Source of the DNA: a virus
Reading direction: 5' to 3' (one strand)
Length of the DNA stretch: 23,374 nt
IMG/VR virus record: IMGVR_UViG_3300036819_000346
Span: 1 to 23,374 of that record
Shown here: positions 7,641-21,120 of the stretch, piece by piece
Layout of the letters: each line of letters starts with the position of its first letter
Position numbering within the stretch: the first letter of the stretch is position 1
Program-made: the position numbers and the translations under genes
Notes under the pieces: model-generated
Told to the model about the DNA's origin: nothing
Seen by the model: the letters and a program-made list of their open reading frames with translations, nothing else
Databases searched by the model: none

Positions 7641-8306
7641 TTATTGCAGCTGGATTGACGATAGACTTTTCTCGCTGCGTCCCGCCCGCACATCCGACGA
7701 GCCACGCCACTCGACAAAATTCGTGTACCCGACCGTAACACCGCCACAAAGCGGCACTCCAGCGACATGCGACAAAACCCGGTGCAGCCCGAACAGGCCG
7801 TTCGCGAGATCCTGGCGCTCCCGGTGAATGCGTGGCTTTACCGAGTTCTCGAAAAACCGATAAAGCTCGATCTTGCTGGTCGGGGGACAGCGCCGCCCAA
7901 GCAACCGGGTGACGATTTCATACACTGCGCTCTGGTCGTAAAGCTCTTCGGTATGCGCCGGGATCAGATCGCGCAACAGGTTCGATTCGACGCTCTGCAC
8001 GCGGTCATCCGCTCGCAAATGCAGCAGGATCACCAACGGCTCGATATGACCCGGCAACCGGGCATAGACCGTGATCAACCCGCCGCCGAGCGGCTTGCCG
8101 TTGACATCCACCTGATGCCGCTGCGCCAGGGCCGTAGCGAGAAACCCCTCGTCAAGCGTCATCGTCGTGCGCAGCCAGCGCACGCACTCCTCCGCCGTAA
8201 CCCCCAGGCACCCAGGGCCGTCCGCCACGCCAGCCGCGCTCGTCATCTGCGGCCAGAGCCAAGCCGCCAACCCCGCCAGCAGTGCCAACTGCCGCAGCCG
8301 TCGCAT
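7641..8306 (-). CDS. Secreted protein of unknown function inside the tail module
   Basis: The 221-aa protein has a clear Sec signal peptide (Arg-rich start, hydrophobic LALLAGLAAWLW, cleavage probably after TSA-A near residue 24). The mature part is mixed alpha/beta with Cys pairs (GPGCLGVTAEEC, GRRCPP) and segments such as GGGLITVYARL, ELYDQSAVYEIVTRLLG and FGLHRVLSHVAGVPLCGG. I do not recognise the family. It interrupts the usual chaperone-to-tape-measure order, is followed by a strong terminator-like hairpin, and is preceded by an 82-bp gap in which I see no convincing promoter. GGAGAGG before the ATG supports this start over an in-frame extension of 61 codons. A lysogenic-conversion (moron) gene is plausible. 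Confidence 0.75.
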   Translation of the reverse strand: MRRLRQLALLAGLAAWLWPQMTSAAGVADGPGCLGVTAEECVRWLRTTMTLDEGFLATALAQRHQVDVNGKPLGGGLITVYARLPGHIEPLVILLHLRADDRVQSVESNLLRDLIPAHTEELYDQSAVYEIVTRLLGRRCPPTSKIELYRFFENSVKPRIHRERQDLANGLFGLHRVLSHVAGVPLCGGVTVGYTNFVEWRGSSDVRAGRSEKSLSSIQLQ

Positions 8307-11121: not shown

Positions 11122-12612
11122 TCAGCCATTGCCGATATTGGTAATGACCCCCATCGCAAACGGCGCGTAGACCGCCAGCACCTCTTCGGCATAGACACCG
11201 ACCTGGCGCTGCCGCGTCACCACCGGCCAGTCGATCTGGTAATAGTCCTGCCGGGTCTTGACCTCGGCGACGTTCGGCACGTCGTTCGACTGGTACTGGA
11301 TCGGCAGGTTCTCGGCCCAGCCGATGATCGTGCCCGGCGGCACCCGCGGATGGATCTTGACCGGGATGCGCAACCCGCCGTTCAGCGCGAACGGGTTGAA
11401 GTAAAACGAGACAGCCCCCGCCGCCGCCAGGTCGTAGGCATTGCCGTCACCGCTGACCTCATAGCGCAACAGCGGCCCCGATGCGTTCGACAGCACCTTG
11501 CTGGTGATGTTCTTCAGCTCCTGCACATTGACGTAGAGCACGGTCGGCGAAAGCTGAAAATTGTTCCACATCGTCTGGAACATCGTGTCGATCTCGACCA
11601 CCGAGCCGCGCCCCGACGCGGTCAGCGGGGTGCCGGCCCCGGCCGTTCCGGTCGCCAGGTTGCTGACATAAGCATTCGAACCGCTCTTCAGCGCTGAAGT
11701 CAGCAGTCCGTCATATGCGTAATTCGGATTGGCCGAGTTGTCGGCAGTAATTGCACCCTGGGCCTGTCCCGTTCCGGCCAGCGGCGCCGAAAACGACGCG
11801 CTGTTGATCGTCGTGATCGCTTCGAGCTTCTCGCCGCCGCTGGAGCTGCTGACATACCACGCATAGGCGACCGCGCCTTTCAGCGCCGTGACGCTGGCGA
11901 ACAGTGTCTGGCCCAGCGTCACCGCCTGGCTTGCTTCTGCACTGATGTTCGACGAGCCACCGGCCAGCGTGTAGCTCTGTCCGTCAGCGCCGGTGATCTC
12001 CTTTGTCGTCGCGACGCCGGAAGCGAGGCCGGAATTCTGGTAGCCCTCCAAGGTCAGAGTCACGACCTTCACATAATAGGTCGCGCTCGGCAGCGACGCG
12101 CCGCTCCCCGACGCCGACAGCACCGGCGTCCCTGGCGTGCCGAGCGCCAGCGAGGCGTTACCGGCGAGGATCGCCATCTCCTCCTTCAGCATCATCTTCT
12201 GCAGCAGGCGGTAGGTCATCCGCGCCTGGATGTCCTCAAAATTGCGGCCGGCACTGATCGCCTCGTAGGTTGCCGCGTCTTCCTCGCCGATCGTCACATA
12301 AGTCGCGGATTTTGTGGCGGTGGTGTACGACATCTGGCCGGAGCGCTGCCCTTCCGGGACCCACCCCATCGCATCGAACCCGGAACCGATCAGCGCCGTC
12401 ACCTGCCGCCAGTTGGTTGCCGTGCCGGTGCCGCCGCCAACCCGTGGCACCGAATTGCGCAGCGGCGTCACCACTGGATAAAGATTCTTTGCCGGCGCCT
12501 GAAGGTCATAGGCAACCAGGCCGGTACTGGTCGAAATCGTCTTGTTGAGCGGGTCGTCGGGCGAGCGCAGCGCGCCCTTGACCAGATCGAGCGTGTCCTG
12601 CGTCGGGTTCAT
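11122..12612 (-). CDS. Major capsid protein with an inserted beta domain
   Basis: The 496-aa protein is encoded between the protease and connector genes, as expected for an HK97-fold major capsid protein. N-terminal residues 1-155 (LNKTISTSTGLVAYDLQAPAK, PEGQRSG, a long helix around 127-150) and the C-terminal part 335-496 (YVNVQELKNITSKVL, PVKIHPRVPPGTIIGWAENLP, WPVVTRQRQVGVYAEEVLAV) look like capsid core. Residues about 159-285 look inserted: a Ser/Thr/Gly-rich beta stretch (ATYYVKVVTLTLEGYQNSG, VAYAWYVSSSSGGEKLEAI) like an Ig or fibronectin fold. The ATG at 12612 has GGAAGGA 7 nt upstream; longer in-frame starts would translate the terminator-like hairpin. Confidence 0.9.
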   Translation of the reverse strand: MNPTQDTLDLVKGALRSPDDPLNKTISTSTGLVAYDLQAPAKNLYPVVTPLRNSVPRVGGGTGTATNWRQVTALIGSGFDAMGWVPEGQRSGQMSYTTATKSATYVTIGEEDAATYEAISAGRNFEDIQARMTYRLLQKMMLKEEMAILAGNASLALGTPGTPVLSASGSGASLPSATYYVKVVTLTLEGYQNSGLASGVATTKEITGADGQSYTLAGGSSNISAEASQAVTLGQTLFASVTALKGAVAYAWYVSSSSGGEKLEAITTINSASFSAPLAGTGQAQGAITADNSANPNYAYDGLLTSALKSGSNAYVSNLATGTAGAGTPLTASGRGSVVEIDTMFQTMWNNFQLSPTVLYVNVQELKNITSKVLSNASGPLLRYEVSGDGNAYDLAAAGAVSFYFNPFALNGGLRIPVKIHPRVPPGTIIGWAENLPIQYQSNDVPNVAEVKTRQDYYQIDWPVVTRQRQVGVYAEEVLAVYAPFAMGVITNIGNG

Positions 12613-12721: not shown

Positions 12722-13492
12722 TTACCGCTGGAATAGCCGGGCCGGCGTCGCGTGCGCCGCCTTGATCAGCGTCAGCGCGCGTTCCTCGTCACTCATGCGC
12801 GCGAGCGCCGCGACGACATCGTCTTGCGTCGCAATAACGTCCGACCCGTCCTCACGCTTCGACAAGCCGGCAACGCCGCGCGCTGCCGTCAGTGGCGGCA
12901 GTGGCGTGCGGGCGATATCGTCGACCCGTTTCTGCAGCGCATCGAGCCGCGGCAGGATGTCGTCGGCGAGTTTCGCGAGACGTGCCGTCACCGGCCCCAC
13001 GCCGGCCAGCAGGGCCTTGGAAATTCCGTCATGCAAGGCCGTAGTGGAAAAATCCACCGGAGGGTCACGCGACGCGAGTTTCCAGCAATCGAACACGGCT
13101 TCGGGGTTGGCCGGGCGGTCGACCACCGAAATCTCGGTCAGGCACAACCCCGTGATCGTGCGCCGATCTGCCGGATCGCGCGCCGTGACGCGTCCGCCGA
13201 TCGAGAAGCCCTTGTAGACGCCCTCGACAACCTTGCGCCAAGCGTCGTCATCGATGATGCGGGCGCCGAGATAAAGCCCACGCTCGTCGATTGCCGCCTC
13301 TGTGGCGACTCCAACCGCAGATGCCTGATGCATTTCGCGGATGTTGGCAAAGCGCATGTAATCGTCAAACGCCGCCGCCAAGGCATCGCGGGTGACGGTC
13401 TCACCCTGGTCGTCCTCGGCTTCGGTCGAAGCATAGCCCCAGACCATGCGCTGCTCGGCGTCGACCTTGGCAATCGGCCAGTAAAATCGCAT
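12722..13492 (-). CDS. Prohead protease (XkdF-like) with C-terminal scaffold-like region
   Basis: The 256-aa protein resembles the XkdF-like putative serine protease family. N-terminal KVDAEQRMVWGYASTEAEDD, REMHQASAVG (His55), GVYKGFSIGGR (Ser97) and the following TEISVVDRPANPEA give the usual His/Ser arrangement. Residues about 150-256 are helical and charged (RLDALQKRVDDIA, LARMSDEERALTLIKAA), as expected for a scaffold fused to the protease, since no separate scaffold gene is present. It would remove the scaffold during prohead maturation. GAGAGG precedes the ATG. Confidence 0.85.
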   Translation of the reverse strand: MRFYWPIAKVDAEQRMVWGYASTEAEDDQGETVTRDALAAAFDDYMRFANIREMHQASAVGVATEAAIDERGLYLGARIIDDDAWRKVVEGVYKGFSIGGRVTARDPADRRTITGLCLTEISVVDRPANPEAVFDCWKLASRDPPVDFSTTALHDGISKALLAGVGPVTARLAKLADDILPRLDALQKRVDDIARTPLPPLTAARGVAGLSKREDGSDVIATQDDVVAALARMSDEERALTLIKAAHATPARLFQR

Positions 13493-13513: not shown

Positions 13514-15361
13514 TCAGTGCTGCCAGGCGATCTGCGGATCGACCCAACCGATCGTCGCTGCCTGAAAGGTCGTCGAACTGTTGTTGGAAACGGCGCGGAT
13601 TTGCTGCGCCGTGTTGGTCATCAGCCGGTCGGTGCCGTACATGCCGACGCCGCTGCTGCATTGGCAAAAGGTGCCATTGCCGGTCGGCGTGTTAACCGCG
13701 GCGCTCGTTTCGTCCGGCGAGGTCAGCAATACGTTGCGGGTGCCGCTCGAAAAGATGTCATAGCGAAAATGCGCCTCGACCTTGTAGCCCAAGGGGACGT
13801 TCGTCATCGCGAACAGCGTCGCTGTCGTGCTCAGCGCATTGGTGTTGATGTCCTCGACCGGCACCGACCAGACGAATTCGTTGCCGGTCTGGACAAAAGC
13901 CAGGATGTGCGCGCTGCCATCGGTCTTGAACGGCCCGATGTAGCGCTTGCGCCCGTAATTCGTCGGCATCGTTGGGGCGCCATAGGTCGCTGTGCACAGG
14001 TAATCGGCCGCGCCGGTATCGCCGCGCTGGACTTGATAGAGATAGTACCAGGTCGCATTCGCCACGGTGCCGGTGTCGAGGCAACCATTGCCGCTGCCGA
14101 CCGCCCATGATCCCGTCGTCTTGGTGTAGGCGCTGGTCTGCGGCATAACGTAATAGGTCGTGTCGTCGGCCGTGGCGCAGGCCGCGACGTCGATCACGGT
14201 GTTGGGCGTCGTGCCGTCATTCGCCAGCGTGCAGCCGCTGCCATAGCCCGGCAGCAGTAGTGCAGCATGCGTCGCGTCAAAAGTGAAATTGGTGAGGTGG
14301 CCGGTATTGTTTCGCCAGAACAATGTCGCCGCGCCGTTGATGACCGGGTTCGGCGCGCCGCTTTCCTGGTCGAGATAAAGCGTGTTCTTGAGGCTCGGGA
14401 AGATGTCGCTTTCGGCCGTGACCGCGCTCGTCGCAAAGCCGGCGACCCCGAACATGCCGCTGAACTGGTTGGAGCGGCAGGCACGCAGTACACTCGATGA
14501 ACTCGCCATCAGATTAAGGCTCTTGCCGGTGCCGCTGCCGACCGGTTCGATCTGCGCGTGGGCGATTTCGTTCCCGTCCATCGCGCCGCACTGAAACCCG
14601 GTGCCGTTCTGATAGGTGACGACTGGTTCCAGCCAGTAATTACGGTTGGTATCGTTGCCGGCGATGCTACCCGGTCCGATCAGCCAGCCATTGGCGTTGA
14701 GCGACGAGGCGTCTGTCAGGTCGGCATAGGTGCGGATGAAATGATTGAAGGCGGTCTGCACGTTGGCGGTCGCGCCGACATCGACATCCCAGGCATTGGC
14801 CGTTACCCGCTCGATGTAAAGGTCTTGAAACCAGCCCCAATCGGCGCTGCGCAGCTTGACCGCGGTGCCGGCCACGGTCGCGCCGTCGAGGCAGAATTGC
14901 GACAGCCCGATACCAGCAACCTGATGCGCCGCGCTGTCGCTGCCGCCGCTCACCATCACGCCGCTCGACGCGCCAAGCCATTTCAGCGTCGTGGCGCACT
15001 GCCCGTAATTGGCGCCGCCGGCGCCGACGACCCGCACGCCGTTCAACAGGTCGATCGTCGTCGACAGCCCCAAAATGCCAGCCGGCACCGTGACCGTGCC
15101 GCCTCCGCCCGCGCTCGCCGCCGTTATCGCGCTGTTGATGCACGTCCCGACATCGTGGCTGGCGTCCCAGATGCACCCGGCGTAATCCTTTGCGTAATAG
15201 ACCGCGCTCTGCCCGCTGCCGATACCAAGGTTGTCGCGTGCATCCGGCAGCGCCGCATTCGTAGCGTCGGGATACATCGCGGGCGGCTGCACCGGATCGG
15301 CGACAGCCGCTATCGGCACCGTCAGGGCGGCCGACAGCAGGGCAACAGCATAACGCTTCAT
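13514..15361 (-). CDS. Secreted beta-helix (tailspike-like) protein
   Basis: This 615-aa protein has a clear Sec signal peptide (KRYAVALLSAALTVPIAAVA, cleavage after AVA near residue 21). It continues with DARDNLGIGSGQSAVYYAKD and a pectate-lyase-like start (CINSAITAASAGGGGTVTVP), then many short beta repeats that suggest a right-handed beta-helix (about 80-330). The C-terminal half (NTNALSTTATLFAMTNVPLGY, NVLLTSPDETSAAVNT, FQAATIGWVDPQIAW) resembles the ends of phage tail fibre proteins. I see no clear catalytic motif. GGGGAG 7 nt before the ATG at 15361 supports the start directly at the signal peptide. The place between portal-proximal genes and the protease is unusual for a tailspike. It may be a spike, a secreted depolymerase, or a surface protein made by the lysogen. 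Confidence 0.78.
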   Translation of the reverse strand: MKRYAVALLSAALTVPIAAVADPVQPPAMYPDATNAALPDARDNLGIGSGQSAVYYAKDYAGCIWDASHDVGTCINSAITAASAGGGGTVTVPAGILGLSTTIDLLNGVRVVGAGGANYGQCATTLKWLGASSGVMVSGGSDSAAHQVAGIGLSQFCLDGATVAGTAVKLRSADWGWFQDLYIERVTANAWDVDVGATANVQTAFNHFIRTYADLTDASSLNANGWLIGPGSIAGNDTNRNYWLEPVVTYQNGTGFQCGAMDGNEIAHAQIEPVGSGTGKSLNLMASSSSVLRACRSNQFSGMFGVAGFATSAVTAESDIFPSLKNTLYLDQESGAPNPVINGAATLFWRNNTGHLTNFTFDATHAALLLPGYGSGCTLANDGTTPNTVIDVAACATADDTTYYVMPQTSAYTKTTGSWAVGSGNGCLDTGTVANATWYYLYQVQRGDTGAADYLCTATYGAPTMPTNYGRKRYIGPFKTDGSAHILAFVQTGNEFVWSVPVEDINTNALSTTATLFAMTNVPLGYKVEAHFRYDIFSSGTRNVLLTSPDETSAAVNTPTGNGTFCQCSSGVGMYGTDRLMTNTAQQIRAVSNNSSTTFQAATIGWVDPQIAWQH

Positions 15362-15375
15362 CACCAGGCTCCCCG

Positions 15376-15822
15376 TCACCAGCTTCGCGCCGCCATCTGG
15401 CACCCGGCGCCGCTCGAATAAATCCGGATGCGTCCGGTATGCGGCATCCCCGCCATGCTGAGCGAGCCGCCCTGGCCGCCATTCGCTGCCGCACCGGCCA
15501 GCACCACCACAGTCGGCGCCAACCCACCGGCCGCGTCGTCGAACACGACCGACAGGCCCGCCGTGCACTGCGCCTGGATGAAATACCCCAGTCGCGGCAC
15601 AGCCGGCGCCGGCATCGTCGCAAGCAGTGTCAGTCCGCTCAACGAGGGCGCGTTGGCACTGTAGTCAGTGCCGTTCTTCCCCGGCTCGGTCATCGCCTCG
15701 CTGGCGCCAAGCTGGCGATAAGCCGGCACCTCAACCGCCTGTGCCTGTGCCTGTGCGCGAACCGGCACGGCGAGCACCGCCAATAAAAAAGCCGCCCGAA
15801 GGCGGCGCGTGTCCATTTTCAT
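15376..15822 (-). CDS. Small secreted beta-rich protein in the head module
   Basis: The 148-aa protein begins KMDTRRLRAAFLLAVLAVPVRAQAQAQA, a signal peptide with likely cleavage at ARAQA near residues 23-28. The mature part (LGYFIQAQCTAGLSVVFDDAAGG, LAPTVVVLAG, TGRIRIYSSGAGCQ) looks like a compact beta sandwich with two Cys residues. Small beta proteins of similar style occur in phage head modules, where decoration is one role, but those lack signal peptides. The ATG at 15822 has GAGGAG 8 nt upstream. A terminator-like hairpin lies in codons 3-13. It is followed at 14 bases by the 615-aa beta-helix gene, so the two may work together. Confidence 0.7.
   Translation of the reverse strand: MKMDTRRLRAAFLLAVLAVPVRAQAQAQAVEVPAYRQLGASEAMTEPGKNGTDYSANAPSLSGLTLLATMPAPAVPRLGYFIQAQCTAGLSVVFDDAAGGLAPTVVVLAGAAANGGQGGSLSMAGMPHTGRIRIYSSGAGCQMAARSW
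15785..15806 (-). terminator. Terminator-like hairpin inside the start of the 148-aa gene
   Basis: On the minus strand GCCGCC-TTCG-GGCGGC is a perfect 6-bp stem with a TTCG tetraloop, followed by TTTTTTATT. It lies 14 nt after the ATG of the 148-aa secreted protein, where it encodes part of the signal peptide. A translating ribosome would melt it, so termination might depend on translation. Confidence 0.6.
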
Positions 15823-15878
15823 TACGCAGACTCCTCGAAATCTCCTTGGCCGGACGTGTCCTTGGGAAGGCGGAGTTT

Positions 15879-17201
15879 TCAAGACGCAGAACCCGCGGGT
15901 GGCGCGCTGCGGTCGAACATCCGCACCACATTACCGCCGGCAACCGGGCCGAAACCAAGAATGTTGCGCGCCTCGTTGACCGTATAAATTCCGTCGCGCA
16001 CATAAAGATCGAGCATGCGCGCCTGCTCGCCCGGATCGGCCGGACGCTGGTCGATCCAGGCAAATTCGAGATCGCTGTGCCCCATGCGGTCCTGGATGAC
16101 GTGGTCGACCAGCCGCTTCACCCAGCCCATCAGCGGCGCCATGCCCTCGGCAATCGCCGCGTCCTGCGTGGTTTCGGCGGTGGCGCGGTTGACCTGGCGG
16201 GTGAACGCGGTCGCCGGCAGCGAAAACGCATAGCAGACGATGCGTGCCAGCCACTCGTCGAACTCATCCTTGTACGGCGCCTCCTTGAACGGCTGATAAC
16301 GCGTGCCGCTCGGCCCCCAGACGAGCCGCGAGCGCGCCCCGGTATTGCCGGCGAGCACACTGTCGAACCATTCCTGAAACTGCCGGATCTGTTCGGCGCT
16401 CCAGCCGTCCGGCGCATTCAAAAGGCCGGCCGGCACATTGCCTTCGGTAAAATGCTGCAGCTGCATCGACTGCCGGCGCAGCGCAATGTTGACCGTCATC
16501 ACGATCTGCTCGACCGGGCCAAACCCGTAGGCTTTGTGCGCCCGTACATTGCGCGGCAGATAAAGCAGCTCATCGCCGGTCAGCAACTTCCACGGGCGGC
16601 CGTGAATGACCTGTTCGAAGGCCGGCGCCGGTGGCCGCGGCCGCCGCCCGGTCTCATCGAACAGCACCTTGATTGTCGCGCCATCGACGACGTCGAGGCC
16701 GATAATATCCCCGCCGCGATTGCGCCGCATCTCCAGTGCCGGCGCATCCAGCACCAGCAAATCCTCGACGACCTCACGCAGCCAGCCGGCAAACGGCCGC
16801 TCGCCATCCGGCCGCCGCCAGAAACCGGCCAGCCCGGCAGCGCGCACCTTGGCGTCGCCTGCGATCGGATCGAGCGCGCGCGGCTTGATCGTCCAGTCGA
16901 GCTTTTCGAGTTGGTCCTTGCGCGTCTCGATCGCCAGCCGCGTGATGTCGTGCGCGTCGGCAAGCGCCCGCAACTCCGCAAACGAAATCGGCTCGTAGGC
17001 CCGCGGCGTGTAGATCGTGTTGACACCGACCGGGAAATCCCAAAGCCGCAACCGCTCCGGCTCCGGCGGCGCCAGCGGATACCCCGGCGAGAAAATCCCC
17101 TGGCCGGGCTGAAACACCCTGCCGAACCGGGCTTCGAGGCCTTGCTGGCCCCAGCTATAAGAAGCCGTAAGCGGCGTGCGCGGCATATTGGCGGGCGGCA
17201 T
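15879..17201 (-). CDS. Portal protein
   Basis: The 440-aa protein matches phage portal proteins. Recognisable parts are ITRLAIETRKDQLEKLDWTIKPR (about 85-107), FAGWLREVVEDLLVLDAPALEMRRNRGG, YLPRNVRAHKAYGFGPVEQIVMTVNIALRR, LNAPDGWSAEQIRQFQEWFDSVL, the PFKEAPYKDEFDEWLARIVCYAFSLP region and a C-terminal LYVRDGIYTVNEARNILGF. It forms the dodecameric DNA channel. The ATG overlaps the stop of the upstream 860-aa gene by one base (TGATG); an alternative start five codons in (MPRTPLTA) is possible. Length is normal. Confidence 0.93.
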   Translation of the reverse strand: MPPANMPRTPLTASYSWGQQGLEARFGRVFQPGQGIFSPGYPLAPPEPERLRLWDFPVGVNTIYTPRAYEPISFAELRALADAHDITRLAIETRKDQLEKLDWTIKPRALDPIAGDAKVRAAGLAGFWRRPDGERPFAGWLREVVEDLLVLDAPALEMRRNRGGDIIGLDVVDGATIKVLFDETGRRPRPPAPAFEQVIHGRPWKLLTGDELLYLPRNVRAHKAYGFGPVEQIVMTVNIALRRQSMQLQHFTEGNVPAGLLNAPDGWSAEQIRQFQEWFDSVLAGNTGARSRLVWGPSGTRYQPFKEAPYKDEFDEWLARIVCYAFSLPATAFTRQVNRATAETTQDAAIAEGMAPLMGWVKRLVDHVIQDRMGHSDLEFAWIDQRPADPGEQARMLDLYVRDGIYTVNEARNILGFGPVAGGNVVRMFDRSAPPAGSAS

Positions 17202-19783
17202 CAGAAAGTGCTCCAGGCAGCGCGTTTCCAGGTATTGGGTGCGGTGCAGGCGTAGAGGTAGTTCGAGTCGAGCTGTACCTCGCCGGTCTGACAGACGGCG
17301 GAACTTGATGCAGGTGTGCCGGCGGCCGGGAACATGCCATTGGCCGATGCAGTGGCCGGCGTCGTCGACATCACCCGAAAGTTCGAGCCGTCAAACTCCA
17401 GCCGCACCAGTTCGTAATTGCCGCCATACATCGTCAGTGCCGACTGGGCGCCGCGGGTGCCGGGCAGCAAAATCGTTCCACCGCTACTGCCGTTGACCTG
17501 CACGGTCAGCGTTTTGTTGTTGTCCGAGGCAAAGCTCATCGCCCAGCCCGCCGTAATCGCGGTGGTGGACGGCAGCGTCACCGTCAAGCTCGATGTCGGC
17601 GCGTTGAAGTTGGAGATCGCCGTGCCGCAATCCGTCACCCCGGCCGCATAAGTGCTGACCGACGGAAAGCTCCATTTCTCGGTGCAGGTGCCGCCGCGCA
17701 GCCCGATGGCGGCGGCACTTGCCGGGGTTATTTGCGACACTCGAAAATTCGACCCGTCGAATTGCAGTACCGCCGTTTCGTAATCGCCGGCGGCGAGTTG
17801 CAGCGACGTGACACTGGCGCCGCTGCCGGGATAGAGGATCTTGCCGCCGGACGTATCATTGACCTGCACCGAGGCGAGCTTGCTGTTTTCGTTGGCGATC
17901 GCCAGGGTCCAGCCGGTGTTGATCGCTGTCGTCGAGGGCAGCGTCACGGTCAGGTAACCGAGCGGACTGTTAGAGGCGGAGATCGCGGTGCCGTTATCCG
18001 CGGTTGCGGTGCTGTAGGCGCTGACCGCCGGAAAGCGCCAGCGCGACACTCCGCCGATCCCGGCCATGCCGAGCTGTTGCGCCGTCCCCGGCGTCACCTG
18101 CTCGACGCGGAAATTGCCGCCGCCGTCATATTGCAATGTCACATATTCAAAGGAATTGCCTGCCAGCGACAGCGATGTCTGTGTTACGGCATTGGCCTGG
18201 GGATAGAGAATGTGCCCGCCGTCGGTGCCGTTGACCTGCACCGTCATCGCCTTGCCGTTATCAGTGGCAAATCCCATCGACCATCCCGACGGCAAACCGG
18301 TCGTCGGCGGCAATGTCACACTCAACCCGCTCGTCGTATTAAAACTCGATACGACATTGCCGTTGTCGCTGAGCGCCGCGGCGTAGCCGCCGCTCGTCGG
18401 ATAGAGCCAATTTCCCGGCCAGTCGCGGCTCTGCATGCCATTCGCCGCTAATGTCCCGCGCGTCGCAGTGACGATCCGGTAGTTGTTGCCGTCCGATTCT
18501 AGCTGTAGGTATTCGTAATTATTGGGACCGAGCGTGAGCGAACTCACGGTCTTGCCGCCCGACAGAATCTGCCCCGATGCCGGGGTGATGCTGAGGCCTT
18601 TGCCGTTATCGGTTGCAAAACCCATCGACCATCCCGCCCCCACTGTGGACGGTGCCGGCAGGGTCACGGCCAGTGCCGCGCCGGTCGCGTTAAACGACGA
18701 CAGCACAATCTTGTCGTCGATCGGCGCTGCGGTATAGGTGGCGGCCGCCGGGAACTGCCAGCGCCCCCAATTTCCGCCGCCGATGACCTCGATACCGGTC
18801 GATTGCGGCCCGCGATTGACGACATTGCCGGCATAAGTCGGGTTGATCAGCACGTTGTGGCTGCTCGCCGTCGCGTTGACCGCCGTAGTGCATGCGAAAT
18901 AGGGCGACACAAAACTGTTCATGCCATCATGGACATCGGTGATGCCGAGACAGGTCGGCGCATTTTCCAGATCGAACGCGAAGATCGTGTTGGCATAGTT
19001 AAAGCCCTGCTCCAGCAACAACCCGGTGCCACCCGTGCCGAGCGCCGATCCGGCCCCGGAAATGCGCGAAAACTCGGTCTGTTCCAGTGCCAGCCCCGCC
19101 GCGCCGCCCGCCGCATCGGCAATCGCGAAAATATCGGAGTCGAGGACGTAATTGAGCTGCAACCCGCCGCTCGCCGCCGCCGTCGAGGCGTTGTTGACGA
19201 CCAGATGATCGATCTTGGCCGAGTTGTGCGCGTCGGAAAAATCCGTCTTGCCGATCACCACGGCATAAGCCGGCGTATCGGCATTGACGAACAACGTACC
19301 TTCTTCCTTGAAATAAAAGCAGTTGGTCGGGCTGCCGCTGGTGCCGCCCGAACATTGCACCTGCAATACCGGGCCGCTGGCAATCGTGCGCCCGTCGAGC
19401 GTCGCGCCCTCCGAAACCAGCCGGAACCCGGCGCTCGCCTGCCCGGCATAATCGATCGATAATTTCGACGTTACTTTATAAGTACCGGCCGGCAGATGAA
19501 CCGGCCAGCCATGCGTCACGGCATTGTTGATCGTCGCCTGAATCGCGCTGGTGTCATCATGGCTGCCGTCGCCGACCGCGCCGTTGCACTTGACATCAAT
19601 CCACGGCTGCCCCGAGCACATTTGCACGTTGCCGTTCAGCATTGCGGTGCCGGTCGTGCTGAGCGTCGAGAAATTGCCTGGCGACTGTGCCAGCGCCGGC
19701 GACGCCGTCAGCAGGCCGCCGCCGATCATGGCAATTACCGCCGGTGCGCCGCGGTCGAAGACCCTTTTGCCAAACCGTGTCAT
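17201..19783 (-). CDS. Secreted beta-helix protein with four tandem beta domains
   Basis: The 860-aa protein (from ATG; a TTG one codon upstream at 19786 is also possible and better spaced from AGGAG) starts with a signal peptide ending in TASPALA-QS near residue 33. Residues about 60-110 read DVKCNGAVGDGSHDDTSAIQ, LPAGTYKV, the typical start of pectate-lyase-like beta-helices of phage tailspikes. The helix extends to about 335. Four domains of 117-123 residues follow (starting near 342, 459, 582 and 704), each with YxxxxxDNG, LxVTLP, GWxMxFAxDN, and DGxNFRV motifs. The end, PASSSAVCQTGEVQLDSNYL, is a known phage fibre tail. It lies between terminase and portal genes with one-base overlaps on both sides, so it is firmly part of the operon. 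A virion spike, a secreted enzyme, or a lysogen surface protein are all possible. Confidence 0.8.
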   Translation of the reverse strand: MTRFGKRVFDRGAPAVIAMIGGGLLTASPALAQSPGNFSTLSTTGTAMLNGNVQMCSGQPWIDVKCNGAVGDGSHDDTSAIQATINNAVTHGWPVHLPAGTYKVTSKLSIDYAGQASAGFRLVSEGATLDGRTIASGPVLQVQCSGGTSGSPTNCFYFKEEGTLFVNADTPAYAVVIGKTDFSDAHNSAKIDHLVVNNASTAAASGGLQLNYVLDSDIFAIADAAGGAAGLALEQTEFSRISGAGSALGTGGTGLLLEQGFNYANTIFAFDLENAPTCLGITDVHDGMNSFVSPYFACTTAVNATASSHNVLINPTYAGNVVNRGPQSTGIEVIGGGNWGRWQFPAAATYTAAPIDDKIVLSSFNATGAALAVTLPAPSTVGAGWSMGFATDNGKGLSITPASGQILSGGKTVSSLTLGPNNYEYLQLESDGNNYRIVTATRGTLAANGMQSRDWPGNWLYPTSGGYAAALSDNGNVVSSFNTTSGLSVTLPPTTGLPSGWSMGFATDNGKAMTVQVNGTDGGHILYPQANAVTQTSLSLAGNSFEYVTLQYDGGGNFRVEQVTPGTAQQLGMAGIGGVSRWRFPAVSAYSTATADNGTAISASNSPLGYLTVTLPSTTAINTGWTLAIANENSKLASVQVNDTSGGKILYPGSGASVTSLQLAAGDYETAVLQFDGSNFRVSQITPASAAAIGLRGGTCTEKWSFPSVSTYAAGVTDCGTAISNFNAPTSSLTVTLPSTTAITAGWAMSFASDNNKTLTVQVNGSSGGTILLPGTRGAQSALTMYGGNYELVRLEFDGSNFRVMSTTPATASANGMFPAAGTPASSSAVCQTGEVQLDSNYLYACTAPNTWKRAAWSTF
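17327..18760 (-). repeat. Four tandem ~120-codon repeats within the beta-helix gene
   Basis: Approximate units are 18410-18760, 18041-18409, 17675-18040 and 17327-17674. Each encodes a domain beginning with Trp and a WxFP-like motif (WQFP, WLYP, WRFP, WSFP) and ending with a TPA/TPG-type motif followed by a short link. The first unit is the most divergent (SITPASGQILSG instead of the VQVNxxxGGxIL pattern of the others). This suggests duplication of a carbohydrate-binding-like or spacer domain. Confidence 0.75.
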
Positions 19784-21120
19784 CAACCCTCGCTCTCCTG
19801 TGCGGCAAGCCGCCGATAGGCTTCGAAAATCGCGTCACCGGCGCGCGGTTCGACCAGCAACTCGGTCAGGGCCCACACCAGGGCGTCGACCCGGTCCGGC
19901 GAGTAGCCCGCCGTCGCGCGGTCGAAATCGCTGGTGAATGAGCACATCTGGTCTTCGAGCTGCGGGAATGTGCCGAGATGATGGACTCGCCCTTGTTCGT
20001 AAAGCGCCGCCACCGGCTCGGCCCGCGCAACCTTGCCGCGCGACGCCCGGACGGCGCCGAACGACACCGCCGGATCGACCATGCGCAACGTCGCCTCGAC
20101 CATCTCACCGCCGTTGTTGATTTCGGCGACGACGCGGTCGGCGGCATGCGCGGCACAGGCGGCAATCGCGACGCGCGCCCATTCCGCCGGGGCATAGCGC
20201 CCCGACGCGTCGGCCAGGATATAGCCGTGCCCGTCACCGTCACGCCCGGCGACCACGATGCCGGTTTCGTCCGCCTCGGCACTGGACGCCGCGGCAGGGT
20301 CAATCGCCACCACCACGCGCGACAGATGCGGCGTCGCATTACGGCGCGCCGCCTCGATCATGCCGCGCTGCCACAGCGCGCCCGGCATATCGTCGAGAAT
20401 TTCGCCGTCGAGTTCCTGACGCCCGAGCCGCGTCCCTTCATAGCGCCGCACGATCTGGTCGAGAAAAACGGGTGCCAGGTTGCTGCGGTTTTCGGCAGTA
20501 CGGCCGCGCGTCGCGGCCACTTTCGGGTCGGCGAGCAGCAGGCGGATCAGCTTGGTCGGCCGCGGCGTCGTGGTCACTACGGCGCGCGGATCAGTGCCGA
20601 GCCGCAGCCCGAACATCAGCATGTCCCACGCCTCGGGATAGCGCCACGCCGCCAGCTCGTCGCACCACGCAAGATCATGCTGTGGCCCGCGCAGCCTTTC
20701 AGGCTCGTCGGCGCTGAACAGTGTCGCGACAGCACCGTTCGCCCAGGTCAGCCGTCGTTTCGACGGCTCGTAAAGCGGCCGGTCCCAGGGCGGCGCGATC
20801 GCCAGCAGGCCACTTTCGCCTTCAACCATCACGTCGCGGGCATCGGCCGCCGTCGGCGCCACCAGCGCCACTCGCCGCGCCGTACGTGCGGCAACACGGC
20901 CACGCACAAACTCGGCGCCGGTGCGCGTCTTGCCAAAGCCGCGCCCCGCCAGCAGCAGCCAGATGCGCCAGTCGCCGTTTGGCGGCAGTTGTGCCTCGCG
21001 TGCCCGGTAGGCCCAATCATATTTGATCTGTTCGGCCTGCTTCGGGCTTAGCGAGCGGATCAGCTCATTTCTCAGCGGTTCCGGCAGCAAGGCGAGCGAG
21101 CTCGCGCGCAAGGAATTCAC
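19783..21120 (-). CDS. terL: Terminase large subunit
   Basis: This 445-aa protein is the packaging motor and nuclease. Walker A is GRGFGKT (59-65), Walker B is DLAWCDE (149-155), and the coupling motif is VVTTTPRPTK (181-190). The nuclease half has VVVAIDPAA (Asp274), VVAEINNGG (Glu333) and SPDRVDALVWAL (Asp409/Asp412), the usual acidic set. It belongs with the GTA/HK97-like headful-type large subunits, although the packaging mode cannot be read from the sequence with confidence. It starts with GTG, has AAGGAG 9 nt upstream, and overlaps the small subunit gene by 56 bases. Confidence 0.95.
   Translation of the reverse strand: MNSLRASSLALLPEPLRNELIRSLSPKQAEQIKYDWAYRAREAQLPPNGDWRIWLLLAGRGFGKTRTGAEFVRGRVAARTARRVALVAPTAADARDVMVEGESGLLAIAPPWDRPLYEPSKRRLTWANGAVATLFSADEPERLRGPQHDLAWCDELAAWRYPEAWDMLMFGLRLGTDPRAVVTTTPRPTKLIRLLLADPKVAATRGRTAENRSNLAPVFLDQIVRRYEGTRLGRQELDGEILDDMPGALWQRGMIEAARRNATPHLSRVVVAIDPAAASSAEADETGIVVAGRDGDGHGYILADASGRYAPAEWARVAIAACAAHAADRVVAEINNGGEMVEATLRMVDPAVSFGAVRASRGKVARAEPVAALYEQGRVHHLGTFPQLEDQMCSFTSDFDRATAGYSPDRVDALVWALTELLVEPRAGDAIFEAYRRLAAQESEG

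Follow-up and report, generated by a model that had tools for sequence, protein, structure and literature searches.

Phage tailspikes are assumed to be parts of the virion that stay in the cytoplasm, and annotation pipelines name a phage beta-helix gene as a tail spike or, if it is pectate-lyase-like, as a host-helping metabolic gene. Among the closest described systems, WceF of Pantoea stewartii is a Tat-exported hydrolase with the tailspike fold whose substrate is the exopolysaccharide of the cell itself (PMC7949094). T5 Llp is a periplasmic phage protein that blocks re-infection (PMC9586334), and GhsA and GhsB of RcGTA are capsule-binding head spikes borne on the capsid (PMC8601537). The locus described here belongs to a conserved group of uncultured phages that appears to export tailspike-like proteins during head assembly.

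Organization of the late operon and its relatives

The window, meaning the whole stretch of DNA analysed (23,374 bases of a virus record, GC 64%), holds a single late operon on the minus strand with terS, terL, portal, prohead protease, capsid, connectors, tail, tape measure and a GH25 endolysin, the tail end being RcGTA-like by its Pfam domains (Phage-tail_3 and Rcc01698_C). The terminase large subunit (19783..21120, minus strand; PF03237/PF17289), the portal protein (15879..17201, minus strand; PF04860, PHROG 2662) and the prohead protease (12722..13492, minus strand; PF04586) have family matches, and the major capsid protein (11122..12609, minus strand) was named by its position after the protease. 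Capsid protein identity is mostly 75-89% across relatives with the same gene order. Three ORFs that the earlier note had reported within this operon are present on the minus strand at 19783-17201 (860 aa, here S860), 15822-15376 (148 aa, S148) and 15361-13514 (615 aa, S615). The one-base overlaps reported for all three hold for S860, which overlaps terL at 19783 and the portal gene at 17201 and is the only exported gene with such overlaps, but not for S148, which starts 56 nt after the portal gene, or for S615, which follows S148 after 14 nt.

Relatives were gathered from IMG/VR by S860, S148 and portal searches. The order terL-spike-portal, which the earlier note had proposed to look for, was found in 48 of the 54 distinct contigs showing both flanking genes (47 from IMG/VR and one MAG contig), one of the 48 (L045) matching S860 in the C-terminal domain only. 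S860 was absent from this position in six contigs and likewise in Brevundimonas phage Polewnik, the portal of which is 45% identical. A screen of 50,697 phage records gave no match to S860 or S148, and the literature searched, mainly open-access papers, yielded no account of such spikes being exported from within a head operon. Of 84,980 species genomes, S860 turned up in only two MAG contigs, and it was absent from 384 further genomes of that MAG's class. The host is probably a member of the Alphaproteobacteria.

Several other features of the locus were recorded. A terminator-like hairpin lies between the protease and capsid genes (12663-12642, minus strand), with a similar CCCGGC stem and T-run before the capsid gene in many relatives; no promoter-like site in the window rose above chance, and the overall counts of promoters and terminators were at chance level. 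The GTA gp15-like tail gene is split into two ORFs (4220-2880 and 2712-1666, minus strand), the one covering positions 150-464 of PHROG 1101 and the next 463-677. For loci L039 (contig 3300027773_000004) and L016, the 80.8-kb contig carries a pair of head modules, both of which include exported spike genes; it may be a chimera, a set of tandem prophages or a large phage. In another relative (L023:4521-6266) S860 (1 to about 370) continues in frame into the C-terminal portion of the 348-aa protein of the tail end; this contig carries an integrase, misses the genes between the two and may be either a deleted element or an assembly chimera.

Predicted export and structure of S860

Signal peptides were scored with a home-made rule, not SignalP, applied uniformly and requiring a 10-residue uncharged core with a mean hydropathy of at least 1.6, a net positive n-region and an A-x-A-like site. 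In the window the rule accepts S860, with predicted cleavage between MTRFGKRVFDRGAPAVIAMIGGGLLTASPALA and QSPG, S148 (between MKMDTRRLRAAFLLAVLAVPVRA and QAQ), S615 (between MKRYAVALLSAALTVPIAAVA and DPV) and a fourth protein at 8306-7641, and no other gene. Among homologs it was passed by 37/49 for S860, 14/14 for S148 and 4/4 for the fourth family, and by 0/413 of the identically handled control homologs (terS, TerL, portal, protease, MCP, connectors and tail genes). When checked by eye, the failing S860 homologs had zero n-region charge, a cleavage site outside the narrow rule or a misplaced start. Averaged over all pairs of 38 aligned S860 proteins, identity rises from 0.19 in residues 1-14 to 0.30 in 15-31 and 0.73 in 32-60, the break coinciding with the predicted A-x-A site preceding QSPG. 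The signal-peptide pattern is under selection, its n-h-c layout being kept while the sequence diverges and the controls remain negative. The S860 signal is by prediction Sec-type rather than Tat, while the RR in the n-region of S148 makes a Tat route possible for that protein. No lipobox with a Cys at +1 was found in these three proteins, the first cysteine being residue 56 (S860), 86 (S148) or 62 (S615), far past the cleavage sites, and as such they are not lipoproteins.

S860 (17201..19783, minus strand) is an exported tailspike-like protein as judged from its translation, PF12708, PHROG tail protein 17312, an AF2 model and signal-peptide conservation. The single-chain model (mean pLDDT 77) begins with the signal helix (signal peptide 1-32) and a disordered linker, with only about 30 disordered residues from the cleavage site to a right-handed beta-helix (61-330), followed by four tandem beta modules of about 115 aa each (341-450, 466-570, 581-692 and 703-814) and a C-terminal fibre domain (830-860). 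Comparison by VIA-align gave Z scores of 25.5 to 7chu / Geobacillus virus E2 ORF18, 25.4 to alginate epimerase/lyase, 24.8 to AlgE4 and 24.2 to the Sf6 tailspike; the Pfam match to PF12708 agrees with the beta-helix of the model, at the start of which there is a DDT motif. Klebsiella phage tail fibres and cyanophage structural proteins end in a stretch that matches the final 37 residues of S860, and the beta module also occurs in an ORF of a MAG (G001) that adjoins a tail-end gene and has no evident signal peptide.

The cysteines of S860 are conserved in pairs. Cys 144/155 and 278/298 are invariant in the 38 aligned proteins and Cys 56/66 are present in every alignment row covering both positions, while three further pairs are all-or-none, with both, one or neither cysteine in 17/0/21 proteins (208/222), 21/0/17 (700/719) and 30/0/8 (831/846). 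Each of these three changed once on the tree, such that they represent three concerted events and not many. In the two cultured Klebsiella phages examined at that end, the C-terminal fibre domain of this type has one cysteine only. Such pairing is in line with a protein that folds in an oxidising compartment. Signal peptides that are conserved, identity that changes abruptly at the cleavage site and cysteine pairs that are all-or-none bear out the export signals that the earlier note had read on the three ORFs, and make it very probable that the proteins leave the cytoplasm. The tailspike-like nature proposed for two of them is supported for S860 and extends to several proteins at the position of S615, through the beta-helix model, PF12708 and matches to tail-spike or tail-fibre PHROGs; a beta-helix is well supported in S860 (Z about 25, PF12708), and in S615 it is suggested by weak matches to PHROG 2234 (E=0.0016) and AlgE4 (E=0.016).

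The S148 cassette, the variable slot and a fourth protein with a predicted export signal

S148 (15376..15822, minus strand) is a small beta-rich protein with a predicted signal peptide (1-23) and a cysteine pair in its mature part, Cys86 and the C-terminal Cys, both of which are absent from a diverged 136-aa homolog. Its model is poor (pLDDT 63) and all fold neighbours have a Z of 7 or less, for which reason a fold assignment was dropped. In the 16 distinct loci where the 3' flank of S148 is available the next ORF starts -7 to +14 nt away and begins with a signal peptide, 15 passing the test and the sixteenth having the core and ARA followed by D with no n-region charge; the start choice for these ORFs favoured signal peptides. 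By gene order, S148 and a predicted exported spike form a fixed two-gene cassette. The cassette recurs on 81-91 kb contigs (L038/L039), in another head module whose capsid gene is different and where an S148 homolog (45%) is followed by an exported 237-aa fibre-like protein containing LRADGTWAAP and an exported 822-aa protein. One relative (L047) has a different small exported protein in the place of S148. In another (L018) the candidate fusion of a small exported domain with a spike was rejected as two genes joined by reading-frame overlap. Many relatives carry a non-exported 147-aa protein (MTLLVKDANT...AARRW; e.g. L002:3189-3629) between terL and S860 that is absent from the window, to which the C-terminus of S148 has a weak resemblance (hhalign E 0.018, probability 2.6%). 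Within the signal-peptide codons of S148 there is also a terminator-like hairpin (GCCGCC-TTCG-GGCGGC-TTTTTT; 15806-15791, minus strand), the stem of which is retained in most of 14 relatives; conserved dual coding at this site was rejected as the covariation was not above that of shuffles.

The spike partner of S148 in the window, S615 (13514..15361, minus strand), has a predicted signal peptide (1-21), a probable beta-helix start and a C-terminal domain (369-610) that recurs in cultured Rhizobium/Bradyrhizobium phage proteins starting without a signal peptide. A single-protein search of IMG/VR gave no close relatives of S615, and only L036/L037 (55%) were reached through S148. By comparison of the relatives, S860 is a core gene and S615 occupies a highly variable slot between the portal and protease genes, in which the protein bodies are mostly unrelated. 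Common to most slot proteins is a mature N-terminal motif of about 20 residues near PPxMxxDAxNAxLPxARxNLG, directly after the signal peptide (PPAMYPDATNAALPDARDNLG in S615). The signal peptides upstream are not similarly conserved, which suggests that selection acts on the motif and that it does not mark a recombination border. PF12708 matched 5/10 slot proteins tested, with two of the matches falling short of the curated cut-off, and several slot proteins match tail-spike or tail-fibre PHROGs only from inside the profile, starting at 183-185/757 (PHROG 2234), 148/654 (20911) and 538/1096 (4492). In these alignments the virion-anchor region is absent, its place being taken by the predicted signal peptide and a short linker.

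The fourth exported protein (221 aa; 7641..8306, minus strand) has a predicted signal peptide ending in MRRLRQLALLAGLAAWLWPQMTSA before AGV, and its gene has tail chaperone-like genes on one side and the tape-measure gene on the other, with a strong terminator-like hairpin (7607-7590, minus strand) after it. Homologs at 32-65% identity are found in several relatives. No family match was found in Pfam, PHROG or PADLOC, the last of these having no match for any of the four exported proteins. A signal peptide in the tape-measure neighbourhood recalls superinfection-exclusion or moron genes.

Possible roles and comparison with known systems

S860, S148 and the slot protein, which is S615 here, may be tailspike modules re-routed to export. 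The roles offered in the earlier note, action on surface polysaccharide, coating of the cell and uptake by virions after lysis, are all still candidates, although the lack of virion-anchor regions favours a free protein. The favoured explanation, to which about an even chance is given, is that they are free, glycan-directed proteins made late and acting on host polysaccharide in the periplasm or at lysis. Such tailspike- or fibre-type modules, with a cleavable signal peptide and no virion anchor, would be translated in the late phase along with terminase, portal and head proteins, reach the periplasm by Sec (possibly by Tat for S148) and fold in that compartment, where disulfides would probably form. 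S860 would be the constant component, binding or cleaving glycan, and S148 with the variable spike would form a second, host-matched two-part unit. The target would be surface polysaccharide of the host itself, in the periplasm during chain synthesis or in the envelope and matrix after lysis, with the benefit that progeny are not trapped on debris and slime and that re-infection is blocked. The sequences themselves show that signal peptides are conserved, which domains are present, that anchors are lacking, that gene order is fixed and that one slot varies; export itself, disulfides, the S148-spike pairing, the glycan target and the benefit to the phage are inferred.

This explanation is favoured because the fold is glycan-active, the virion anchor is missing, constant and variable components occur together and the tail-tip proteins are separate. 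The C-terminal domain that S615 shares with cultured-phage proteins lacking a signal peptide also counts for it, as does WceF, a cellular precedent for an exported tailspike-fold hydrolase. Against it, the conserved slot motif after the signal peptide suggests docking, possibly to the virion, and the head-operon location and tail-fibre building blocks fit virion proteins. A further difficulty is that Sec delivers to the periplasm only, and crossing the outer membrane before lysis would need another step. Counted against it too is that each all-or-none cysteine pair traces back to one change on the tree. The main rival, on account of the motif, S148 and the fibre modules, is that the proteins do belong to the virion, maturing in the periplasm with disulfides and docking to capsids or tails after lysis through S148 or the mature N-terminal motif, in the manner of decoration proteins. 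The conserved position in the head operon in 48 contigs, the C-terminal fibre domain, the ARNNLG-like motif and the LRADGTWAAP of the exported L039 protein speak for docking, as do slot bodies that vary behind a short constant motif, as in virion receptor-binding proteins, and the likeness of the S148 C-terminus to its non-exported 147-aa neighbour, a link that is weak in hhalign. However, the known virion-anchor regions of tailspike families are missing and no precedent for post-lysis assembly of tailed virions was found in the literature searched, such that docking is considered possible and clearly less probable than free action. A broader formulation, a secreted spike apparatus with a constant S860 beta-helix, an S148-anchored host-matched spike and periplasmic disulfide maturation, serving either as a free receptor-destroying enzyme at lysis or joining virions only after lysis, is put forward tentatively.

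The proteins could also be secreted to serve the lysogen or host, in biofilm or exopolysaccharide remodelling, adhesion or nutrition, as lysogenic-conversion genes within the head operon. In keeping with this, an integrase was present in 3/10 related records, a terminator-like hairpin of its own comes after the fourth exported gene, as in morons, and the folds are pectate-lyase-like; but the one-base overlaps of S860 with terL and portal mean that it should be silent in a lysogen, promoter-like sites do not exceed chance and the gene order is conserved with the head genes, and such a role is improbable. A role as late blockers of superinfection, masking the receptor from the periplasm or outside without degrading glycan and functionally resembling T5 Llp, has the precedent of exported phage proteins that block re-infection (PMC9586334) and would suit a variable slot, yet is rated lower still, in view of the absence of a lipobox, of large beta-helices that indicate glycan proteins rather than porin plugs, and of late expression that leaves little time to protect. 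Finally, the hydrophobic N-termini might not be export signals at all, the proteins being ordinary cytoplasmic tailspikes. The evidence for export is a sequence test by a home-made rule, but the retention of the n-h-c pattern over divergent sequence in dozens of homologs, the identity break at the A-x-A site before Q, the absence of any passing control and the cysteine pairing make this very improbable.

If the proteins are free, their release would serve to destroy receptors, a purpose like that of viral neuraminidases, and if they dock after lysis, tailed-phage assembly would have an undescribed extracytoplasmic branch. In either case a signal peptide in place of a virion anchor is a clear sequence signature by which other phages can be screened, and the predicted exported spikes suggest candidate glycan-active enzymes.

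Like the superinfection-exclusion lipoproteins T5 Llp and Cor, the exported proteins are phage-encoded and predicted to act outside the cytoplasm; unlike them they have no lipobox, are much larger and contain a beta-helix. T5 Llp and Cor are early genes, whereas the exported spike genes here are late. RcGTA has a related tail architecture (an Rcc01698_C domain is encoded in the window) and likewise has spike-like proteins that are not part of the tail module, a likeness of domain content and gene placement; GhsA/GhsB differ in being virion parts that are encoded elsewhere. In common with WceF, S860 is a tailspike-type beta-helix behind an export signal, but WceF is chromosomal, lies in an exopolysaccharide operon and is Tat-exported, whereas S860 is phage-encoded, lies in a head operon and has a Sec-type signal, with hydrolysis being putative. 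The phage tailspike depolymerases (Sf6, K2-2, phi29 gp12, Geobacillus virus E2 ORF18; PHROG 2234, PF12708) resemble S860 in the beta-helix (Z 22-25), the DDT motif at the helix start and the virion-fibre C-terminal domain. S860 differs from them in its predicted cleavable signal peptide and paired cysteines, in having no N-terminal virion-anchor region and in the place of its gene, between terL and portal and not in the tail module. The beta-helix body of a virion tailspike is present in S860, and weakly indicated in S615, but the N-terminal anchor is absent and, by the sequence test, a signal peptide is found where cytoplasmic assembly would call for none; S860-type proteins should therefore not be annotated simply as tail spikes.
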